From: Oscillatoriales cyanobacterium CG2_30_40_61
Lineage (GTDB): Bacteria; Cyanobacteriota; Cyanobacteriia; Cyanobacteriales; Microcoleaceae
Length of the DNA: 64,000 nt
Assembly (NCBI GenBank): GCA_001873365.1
Contig: MNYZ01000058.1
Location: 50,109-114,108, forward strand
Reading direction: 5' to 3'
Shown here: piece after piece, positions 22,067-25,265 of the stretch
How the letters are laid out: every line of letters starts with the position of its first letter
Numbering within the stretch: position 1 is the first letter of the stretch
Made by a program: the position numbers and the translations under genes
Notes under the pieces: model-generated
The model's database searches: none
What the model saw: the letters and a program-made list of their open reading frames with translations, nothing else
What the model was told of the DNA's origin: nothing

Positions 22067-24850
22067 ATGTTAAAATCTCTCTTAGGTGATCCGAATGCGC
22101 GTAAACTTAAAAAATATCAGCCTGTTGTCACGGATATCAACATTTTAGAGGAAGAAATTCAAAGCCTCTCGGATGCAGAACTTCGGGCTAAGACAGGAGA
22201 ATTTAAAGAAAAATTATCCAAAGCCAAAAACCGAGACGAGGAAAACCAGATTCTCGATGAAATTCTCCCAGAAGCGTTTGCCGTTGTCCGGGAAGCCGGA
22301 AAGCGGGTGTTAGGGATGCGACACTTCGACGTCCAACTCCTGGGCGGTATTATCCTCCACACGGGGCAAATTGCCGAGATGAAAACCGGGGAAGGAAAAA
22401 CCCTGGTTTCCACCCTTCCAGCCTACCTCAACGCCTTGGCCGGAAAAGGGGTTCACGTCATCACCGTCAACGATTATCTGGCTCGACGGGATGCGGAATG
22501 GATGGGACAAATCCACCGCTTCCTGGGGCTAAGTGTGGGGCTGATTCAGCAGGAAATGAGTCCCGACCAACGCAAGAAAAACTATAACTGTGATATTACC
22601 TACGGTACTAACAGTGAAATGGGGTTTGACTACCTGCGGGACAACATGGCGACTTCTATGGATGAAGTGGTGCAGAGGGTGTTTAACTATTGCATTATTG
22701 ATGAAGTAGACTCGGTTTTAATCGATGAAGCTCGGACGCCTTTAATTATTTCCGGTCAGGTCGAACGTCCGAGTCAAAAATATATGCGGGCGGCCGAAGT
22801 TGCCCAAATGATGGAAAAGGAAGAACATTATGAAGTTGATGAAAAAGGCCGTAATGTTTTAATGACCGATGAAGGGTTTGCCCGGGCGGAAGAATTATTT
22901 GGGGTTCAAGATTTATATGATCCTAATGATCCTTGGGCGCACTTTGTTTTTAATGCCTTAAAAGCCAAAGAATTATTTATTAAAGACGTCAACTATATTA
23001 TCGGTAATGGGGAAGTGATTATCGTTGATGAATTTACCGGACGGGTGATGCCCGGACGCCGTTGGAGTGATGGTTTACACCAAGCTATTGAAGCTAAAGA
23101 ACGGGTCGATATTCAACCGGAAACCCAAACCTTAGCCACCATTACCTATCAGAATTTCTTCCTATTATATCCCAAATTATCGGGGATGACCGGAACCGCA
23201 AAAACCGAAGAATCTGAATTTGAACGCATCTATAATCTGCAAGTTACTATTATTCCTACCAACCGGATTACCGGACGGGAAGATTTACCCGATGTGGTCT
23301 ATAAAACCGAAGAAGGAAAATGGACTTCTATTGCTGAAGAATGTGCGGATTTACATAAAGAAGGGCGTCCGGTTTTAGTCGGAACAACTAGCGTCGAAAA
23401 ATCGGAAATTCTCTCGAATTTATTACAACAACGCCAAATTCCCCATAATTTATTAAATGCTAAACCTGAAAATGTAGAACGAGAATCGGAAATTATTTCC
23501 CAAGCCGGACGTAAAGGGGCCGTGACTATTTCAACTAACATGGCCGGACGGGGAACGGATATTATTTTGGGGGGAAATGCGGAGTTTATGGGACGGCTAA
23601 AAATGCGCGAGTATTTGATGCCAAAAATTGTTAAACCCGATGATGAAAAAGAATTAGCCTTTGTCGGGGGAGCAGGGAGTCGTCGCCCCGCCGCCCAGGG
23701 ATTTGATCTGAATAAAAAAGCTAAAACTTGGAAAGTAACTACCCAATTATTCCCGACGGAATTATCTAAACCCACGGAACAAAAACTCAAAGATGCGGTG
23801 GATTTTGCCGTGGGAGTCCATGGAGAACGCAGTTTAGCGGAGTTACAGGCGGAGGATTTATTGGCGGTGGCTTCGGAAAAAGCACCGACCACTGACCCGG
23901 TAATTCAGAAATTGCGCGAGGTCTATAACTTAATTGTTCATGAGTACGAAAACTTCACCAAAATCGAACATAATCAAGTGGTGGAATTGGGGGGACTTCA
24001 TGTAATTGGGACGGAGCGCCATGAGTCCCGCCGGATTGATAATCAATTGCGGGGACGGGCTGGACGCCAGGGTGATCCGGGTTCCACGCGGTTTTTCCTG
24101 AGTTTACAGGATAATTTATTACGGATTTTTGGGGGCGATCGCGTAGCCGGATTAATGGATGCTTTTCACGTTGAGGAAGATATGCCCATTGAGTCTAAAT
24201 TGTTAACGCGATCGCTCGAAAATGCCCAACGAAAAGTTGAAACCTACTATTACGATATCCGTAAACAGGTATTTGAATATGACGAGGTAATGAACAACCA
24301 ACGGCGGGCAATTTATGCCGAACGGCGACGGGTTTTAGAAGGGCAAGATTTGAAGGAACAAGTGATTAAATACGGCGAACAAACTATGGATGATATTGTG
24401 GAAGCCTATATTAATCCTGACTTACCTTCGGAAGAATGGGATTTAGAAAGTCTTGTTACTAAAGCTAAGGAATTTGTTTATCTTTTAGCGGATTTAACCG
24501 CCGAACAATTGGTGGATTTATCCGTAGATGAAATTAAAACTTTCCTGCATGAGCAATTACGCAATGCCTATGATCTCAAGGAAAACCAAGTTAATCAAAT
24601 TCGAGCTGGGTTGATGCGCGAAGCCGAGCGCTTCTTCATTCTCCAGCAAATTGATACCTTATGGCGCGAACATTTACAACAAATGGACGCGCTGCGGGAG
24701 TCCGTCGGTTTACGCAGTTATGGACAAAAAGATCCCTTAATTGAATATAAGAGCGAGGGATATGAATTGTTCTTGGATATGATGACCGATATTCGGCGAA
24801 ATGTGATCTATTCCATGTTCCAATTCCAACCTCAACCGGCTGTTGTCTAA
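22067..24850 (+). CDS. secA: Preprotein translocase ATPase SecA
   Basis: 927-residue motor ATPase that drives unfolded preproteins through the SecYEG channel into the thylakoid lumen or periplasm. Motifs: nucleotide site [11 protein letters not shown], the [19 protein letters not shown] segment, preprotein cross-linking domain, second ATPase lobe with [13 protein letters not shown] and [11 protein letters not shown], and the C-terminal helical scaffold with [19 protein letters not shown]. The C-terminal zinc-binding motif common in proteobacterial SecA is absent; the protein ends in QFQPQPAVV, as usual in cyanobacteria. No clear ribosome binding site precedes the ATG. A promoter-terminator pair for a small RNA follows. 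Confidence 0.97.
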
Positions 24851-24902
24851 GGTGTTTACCCATTCTTGATCCCGGCTGTAGATTTTGTTTTTGAGTTTTT
24901 TC

Positions 24903-24930
24903 TTGACATCCCCAAATAATCGTGTATATT
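24903..24930 (+). promoter_or_regulatory. Sigma-70-type promoter downstream of secA
   Basis: TTGACA at 24903-24908 and TATATT at 24925-24930 with a 16-base spacer: a consensus -35 and near-consensus -10. It lies 53 bases after the secA stop and would start transcription near 24937. Confidence 0.6.
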
Positions 24931-24936
24931 TGAGGG

Positions 24937-25010
24937 GTGTGAGGAGTGAAGTCTGAAAAGAAAAAGCATCTGGGGTCGAAACTCGGCCAGACTCCCAGAT
25001 GCTTTTTCTA
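24937..25010 (+). ncRNA. Candidate small RNA after secA with anti-Yfr1-like 5' end
   Basis: About 70-base transcript predicted from the promoter at 24903-24930 to a terminator hairpin. The terminator arms GAAAAAGCATCTGGG (24960-24974) and CCCAGATGCTTTTTC (24994-25008) are perfect over 15 bp and end in a T-run. The unpaired 5' part carries GTGTGAGGAGTG, the exact complement of the core ACUCCUCACAC that I recall as the conserved single-stranded motif of the cyanobacterial RNA Yfr1. AGTCTG (24949-24954) could pair with CAGACT (24988-24993) as an alternative fold. No credible reading frame is present. Whether it binds Yfr1, or instead marks a Yfr1-like gene on the other strand, is open; the minus strand lacks a terminator. 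Confidence 0.5.
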
Positions 25011-25074
25011 TTAATAATTCAGCCCAAAATTCTTAAAATTCGAGGGTTTTTAGCAAGCTAGAAGTCTAACAGAA

Positions 25075-25265
25075 TTAATGACTGGCTTGGGGTTCAGAAA
25101 TATATTCAAAATCGGGTTCGGAATTCCAATGGCCGCGACTATCTTTACCGTTATTAAGGAAAATTTACCCAACGAAAAATCCCCAGCTTTTAGTTGACTG
25201 GGGAAAGCGCGAATTGAGAACGTGCGATAGTTTCTACAATCTAACCCCACAGGATTTGTGGACAC
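25075..25265 (-). pseudogene. Small frameshifted gene, unknown function
   Basis: A GTG at 25265 is preceded by AAAGG with a five-base gap, a good ribosome binding site. The first frame reads as a plausible protein (STNPVGLDCRNYRTF, then AFPSQLKAGDFSLGKF). Near 25160 the plausible coding shifts frame and continues as NNGKDSRGHWNSEPDF, EYISEPQASH and a TAA at 25075-25077. Together the two parts make about 63 residues. The second part starts just after a stop in its own frame, so a one-base indel, or less likely a programmed shift, is needed to join them. No family is recognised. Tentative. Confidence 0.35.

Follow-up and report, generated by a model that had tools for sequence, protein, structure and literature searches.

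A Yfr2 (Cyano-1) small RNA gene downstream of secA in an Oscillatoriales cyanobacterium carries a 15-nucleotide complement to the Yfr1 of the same genome

The window, a 64,000-nt stretch of contig MNYZ01000058.1 from Oscillatoriales cyanobacterium CG2_30_40_61, carries secA on the plus strand (22067..24850; a 927-aa open reading frame that matches NCBIfam TIGR00963 with 1252.4 bits against a cut-off of 800). This gene is the upstream neighbour of a small RNA gene and no part of it. On the same strand, the Rfam model RF01701 (Cyano-1, the Yfr2 family) matches positions 24933-25010 over its full length (model positions 1-69) with 51.1 bits against a curated cut-off of 41. A scan of the whole window with Rfam returns two matches above cut-off, this one and a tRNA. 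In a permissive scan of 24840-25100, Cyano-1 is again the top match among 17 rows; the remaining rows, such as microRNA and leader families, fall far under their cut-offs and were taken as chance. The element after secA thus adds another member to Yfr2; it is a genuine gene, well conserved and of a known kind, from a family that an earlier sequence-only reading of this DNA did not name.

A putative promoter precedes the RNA, with a -35 hexamer TTGACA (24903..24908, +) and a -10 hexamer TATATT (24925..24930, +) separated by a 16-nt spacer, as the sequence-only reading had proposed; the hexamers match the consensus at 11 of 12 positions. Judged from the position of the -10 hexamer and the end of the hairpin, the yfr2 sRNA would span 24936..25010 (+). 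The sequence after the -10 hexamer reads GGGGTGTGAGGAGTGAAG... and holds the 5' motif GGTGTGAGGAGTGAA (24936..24950, +), a perfect complement of UUCACUCCUCACACC in the Yfr1 of the same genome. The motif core GTGTGAGGAGT (24937-24947) is present in a single copy in the window, and 0/100 shuffles contained one. The 5' part, previously described as some 23 unpaired bases, is indeed mostly unpaired in the predicted fold, apart from a weak 3-bp hairpin that uses motif bases 24943-24945. The main hairpin follows at 24959..25009 (+). It is not the perfect 15-bp stem first reported; it has 16 outer pairs, a bulged T at 24993, 3 inner pairs and the 12-nt loop CGAAACTCGGCC (24978..24989, +), and folding of 24933-25010 gives z = -3.2. 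This hairpin is likely also the terminator. The T-run seen earlier exists, but it sits inside the 3' arm of the stem (25003-25007) rather than in a tail behind it. A simple terminator scan reported no terminator at the element; that scan is limited to loops of 3-8 nt and so is blind to this hairpin, whose loop has 12.

The Yfr2 family is reportedly the subject of a paper by Gierga et al. in 2009. The Cyano-1 motif is the hallmark of Yfr2 RNAs (PMC8400943). As described, these RNAs begin with a conserved 5' end that is short and unpaired; then come a linker, conserved in neither sequence nor length, and a long stem that bears a loop of 12 nt and, at position -4, a bulge (PMC2662882). All of these features are present here, with the loop at 24978-24989, three inner pairs and the bulged T at 24993. 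The element thus shares with the family the 5' motif GTGTGAGGAG, the variable linker, the long hairpin, the 12-nt loop and the bulge four bases from the loop, as well as a promoter-like sequence and the presence of more than one copy in the genome. A family member would also be expected to have its own transcription start and to form an abundant RNA of 65-80 nt, the sizes known from Synechocystis (PMC5386190); what the sequence offers here is the conserved promoter-like stretch. Yfr2a of Synechocystis is likewise free-standing on the same strand as its upstream neighbour, starting 93-94 nt past the trxA stop, compared with about 86 nt past secA here (PMC2662882); the neighbouring gene differs, being trxA there and secA here. 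Two further points set this copy apart from the family: its place after secA, which the passages of family literature consulted do not mention, and an unbroken 15-bp complement to its own Yfr1, matched or exceeded in 4/89 copies.

Relatives carry the gene widely. Yfr2 was found in 56 of 59 related genomes, including 53/53 of good quality, and exceeded the Rfam cut-off in 38/59. The search gave no match in three genomes of 55-85% completeness (G010, G012 and G016), while Yfr1 was found in 59/59. It yielded 89 Yfr2 matches, all located in fetched DNA. The comparison of secA-downstream regions that the sequence-only reading suggested was made with 14 sequences: 13 secA-linked copies, the window's included, and one from G013 that is not secA-linked. 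Firstly, the flanks and spacers vary: the positions invariant in all 14 number 1/52 in the gap between secA and the promoter, 3/16 in the promoter spacer, 2/11 in the linker and 1/41 after the hairpin. Secondly, the functional parts hardly vary: the -35 hexamer is invariant at 6/6 positions in all 14 sequences, the -10 hexamer at 6/6 in the 10 sequences of the genus and at 5/6 in all 14, the 5' motif at 11/11 (24937-24947) and the loop region at 18/19, rising to 19/19 within the genus. Finally, the stem covaries. Its cells are paired in 98.5% of cases, four pairs have changed on both sides, and no slid version of the stem equals this; the covariation score was reached by 0/500 shuffles, the count of pairs changed on both sides by 36/500 and the count of further pair types by 149/500. 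A conserved promoter, motif and loop around a covarying stem, set in variable flanks, argue for a small RNA gene with its own promoter and against either a bare terminator or a coding sequence.

The bare terminator would reduce the element to the end of the secA transcript, with no function as an RNA. Its position about 86 nt past secA suits that role; the simple scan (loops of 3-8 nt) gave no other terminator nearby, and read-through from secA into the element is likely. A terminator would not account for a -35 hexamer invariant in 14/14 sequences, a -10 hexamer invariant at 5/6 positions, and a fully invariant motif and nearly invariant loop beside a secA-promoter gap with 1/52. In addition, 76/89 Yfr2 copies have no SecA match upstream, two of these 76 having less than 300 nt of upstream DNA. 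We rejected the pure terminator on the conservation of promoter, motif and loop, and regard it as very improbable. A 22-aa small protein starting from a GTG at 24946 is more improbable still. Its frame (24946-25014) is open in 10/10 genus genomes, so the earlier statement that the element holds no reading frame is right in substance and wrong to the letter. The frame crosses the hairpin, whose conservation is structural, and outside the genus its start is lost (GTA for GTG in G018 and G023) or the frame reads differently (G011), which is why it is not taken as coding.

The location after secA is a local feature of close relatives. Of the 89 Yfr2 copies, 13 closely follow a SecA coding sequence: those in 10/10 genus genomes and in G011, G018 and G023 from other genera of the family. 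Among 80 other secA loci, some without full downstream coverage (the shortest has 76 nt of DNA past secA) and possibly lacking the closest kin of the window's genome, 1/80 has a plus-strand copy of the motif in the first 500 nt past secA. That locus (L169) belongs to an Oscillatoriales metagenome-assembled genome with 95% SecA identity and is probably from a genome already counted (G006:C148); another locus (L210) has the motif on the minus strand only. An Rfam scan of 14 of the 80 loci was concordant, with Cyano-1 in 1/14. Linkage this local is consistent with the report that the loci of yfr2 genes are not conserved (PMC6778093). In the open-licence literature searched, whose coverage was partial, we found no secA-linked yfr2, no two classes of Yfr2 and no two-site Yfr10-like RNA; among the papers listed, one mentions both Yfr2 and secA, and secA serves there as a reference gene.

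The partner of the element lies in the same genome (119 contigs, 99% complete), where a covariance model search finds one Yfr1 with 60.1 bits. It sits at L003:1501-1565 between what we take to be thioredoxin-like and enolase-like ORFs, named from their translations. The trxA side fits the usual place of Yfr1 described in the literature, guaB-trxA (PMC6778093), and the other side does not. The exact complement of the Yfr1 motif that had been noticed before is there, and it extends to an uninterrupted 15-bp run (24936-24950) against this Yfr1. For 24936-24958 the predicted duplex with Yfr1 has -31.3 kcal/mol, a value as strong in 0/2000 mononucleotide shuffles, and the predicted dimer gain of the two RNAs is -28.8 kcal/mol. 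Unbroken complements of at least 15 nt occur in 4/89 Yfr2 copies and are shorter in 85/89, while the motif GTGTGAGGAG is exact in 82/89 and 7/89 depart from the 10-mer. Of 60 fetched Yfr1 matches, 59 carry the Yfr1 core TCACTCCTCACACCA, so that all 59 genomes searched have it; the one match without it, among the 60 rows, is a weak second match in G042 (30.5 bits) that was not taken as Yfr1. Since the core is invariant in these genomes, covariation between Yfr1 and Yfr2 is uninformative as a test of pairing; other targets could be what keeps the Yfr2 motif constant.

On the opposite strand the element carries the 11-mer ACTCCTCACAC, which raised the alternative of a Yfr1-like gene on the minus strand. 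Scored with RF01116, the minus strand at 24915-24953, which bears ACUCCUCACAC, reaches 12.5 bits (E 4.7) against a cut-off of 38; a true Yfr1 lies elsewhere in the genome, and the conserved promoter and T-run are on the plus strand. We rejected this candidate on the model score and give it practically no chance. The element is not a member of the Yfr1 family (RF01116) but a partner with its exact complement. For the same reason the earlier idea that it might share the targets of Yfr1 is unlikely: it bears the complement of the Yfr1 motif rather than the motif. Across the 4.8-Mb genome, ACTCCTCACAC occurs three times and its reversed control 0 times. The count proves little because base composition leads us to estimate about one chance match per genome; the weight rests on conservation and on the fact that all three places look like small RNA genes, namely the minus strand of the element, Yfr1 and a site on another contig (C85:14074).

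Published work gives this complementarity a likely meaning. Yfr1 and Yfr2 are widely distributed; the motif of Yfr1 is fully conserved, and genomes carry between one and nine copies of Yfr2 (PMC4734099, PMC5386190). For Prochlorococcus RNAs, Lambrecht et al. 2019 report enrichment of Yfr1 and Yfr10 in a Yfr2 affinity pull-down; in E. coli, a GFP reporter under repression by Yfr1 recovered when Yfr2 was co-expressed, and RNase E no longer cleaved Yfr2 to which Yfr1 or Yfr10 was bound (PMC6778093). In Nostoc, Brenes-Alvarez et al. 2020 report binding of Yfr2 and Yfr1 by EMSA, with sequestration marked as hypothetical in that paper (PMC6974561). The suggestion of the sequence-only reading that a plus-strand small RNA might sponge Yfr1 finds support here: the element fits Yfr2, whose pairing with Yfr1 is published for these two genera, and the idea is close to the published model.

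We therefore think it probable that the element is a free-standing Yfr2 (Cyano-1) sRNA gene of about 74 nt, with its own promoter, whose product sequesters Yfr1 and relieves the targets of Yfr1. Transcription would start about 86 nt past the secA stop from a sigma-70-type promoter of the gene's own and would end at the conserved hairpin. The 5' end of the RNA would mimic the target site of Yfr1 (GAGGAG with its flanks) and pair over 15 nt with the invariant Yfr1 core. Such pairing would occupy Yfr1, and probably a Yfr10-like RNA too, so that the mRNAs under their repression would be relieved; the 12-nt loop, also conserved, is presumably there for other contacts. Transcription, binding and sequestration in this organism, as well as the role of the loop, are inferred. 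The direction of control between the two RNAs could also run the other way, since the pull-down of Lambrecht et al. 2019 recovered many other Yfr2 targets and the activity of Yfr2 can reportedly be neutralised through pairing with Yfr1/10 (PMC6778093). The main job of Yfr2 might then be the regulation of mRNAs and antisense RNAs that it contacts itself, by way of the 5' motif and the loop, with Yfr1 as the sponge that switches it off. The loop, as conserved as the 5' motif (19/19 positions in the genus), agrees with that arrangement, and the reporter assay, in which Yfr2 cancelled repression by Yfr1, speaks against it (PMC6778093). We hold it to be a reasonable possibility, somewhat short of an even chance. 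The element adds a further cyanobacterial genus to a published circuit of small RNAs (Yfr2 with Yfr1/Yfr10), one in which the gene keeps a fixed position and the complement runs to 15 bp. The general picture is unchanged, but together with the second Yfr2 class described below the finding would allow a simple experiment on which of the Yfr2 copies controls Yfr1.

The genome carries a second Yfr2 (G000:C23:4895-4963, L002:1501-1569), which reads GUGUGAGGAGCGAACCAG ... GAGACGAAACACGG and scores 34.8 bits, below the cut-off of 41. Sorted by the sequence before the loop, the 89 copies fall into class A (n=42, the window's copy included) and class B (n=47, GAGACGAAAC), to which the second copy belongs. 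Class B is present in at least 46 of the 56 Yfr2-bearing genomes, as a single copy in 45 of these, counts that are lower bounds because the stricter filters of the 59-genome search lose some weak matches. All 13 secA-linked copies are class A. Below the Rfam cut-off lie 38/47 class B copies and 1/42 class A copies, so annotation at that cut-off would miss most of class B. One genome of the order has four class A copies in a cluster of about 1 kb (L011, G052:C29:118871-119890), and close Yfr2 pairs occur in G045 and G050.

The two classes differ directly after the common motif, where class B has C in 44/47 copies and CGAA in 43/47, and class A has T in 29/42 (exact pattern). The conserved C of class B is a mismatch against Yfr1: it faces an A, which is why the unbroken complement of class B stops at 10 pairs (41/47 copies). 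In this genome the predicted dimer gain with Yfr1 is -20.2 kcal/mol for class B against -28.8 for class A, and across the 10 genus genomes the predicted duplexes range from -25.1 to -24.9 kcal/mol for class B and from -35.3 to -27.9 for class A. Over all copies the mean duplex energies are nearly equal (-25.7 for class A, -25.4 for class B), so the gap in strength is specific to this genus and does not hold for the classes generally.

Class B and the possible wiring of a Yfr10-like RNA are the unusual residue of this case. Behind the third ACTCCTCACAC place, C85:14074, come a hairpin-like repeat and a T-run, and the candidate RNA there (G000:C85:14074-14153) looks like a Yfr10-type small RNA. 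RNAs of this kind carry the Yfr1 motif, so it would be a partner of the element and a different RNA from it. A DNA search found the candidate in 10/40 genomes, which are all 10 genus genomes (L148-L157). Its site 1, ACTCCTCACAC, is exact in 7/10 of these, and the 22-mer AAATCACGTTTCGTTCCTCACC that follows is identical in 10/10; this 22-mer contains a site 2, TTCGTTCCTCAC, that can pair with GUGAGGAGCGAA of class B with one G-U. These features suggest, as a lead and not a result, that in this genus a Yfr2-Yfr1-Yfr10 circuit may be wired with matched sites, in which ACUCCUCACAC would fit class A, the invariant UUCGUUCCUCAC would fit class B (GUGAGGAGCGAA), and Yfr1 would prefer class A. If this were true, one Yfr10-like RNA would titrate both Yfr2 paralogues while Yfr1 favoured class A. 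We consider such matched wiring unlikely. The exact two-site pattern occurs in 11/243 genomes of the order, comprising 6/6 genus genomes in the draw and five elsewhere, and its reversed control in 3/243; in the 95 bases viewed at each site, the five matches outside the genus showed no sRNA-like hairpin with a T-run. As isolated sites, class B pairs with site 2 at -21.2 kcal/mol (4/1000 shuffles as strong) and with site 1 at -18.7 (0/1000), and class A with site 2 at -17.9 (51/1000) and with site 1 at -23.3 (0/1000); the piece used for site 2 was longer (24 vs 16 nt), a bias in its favour. When the whole RNAs are cofolded, site 1 is the pairing partner of both Yfr2 classes, a result that speaks against site 2.
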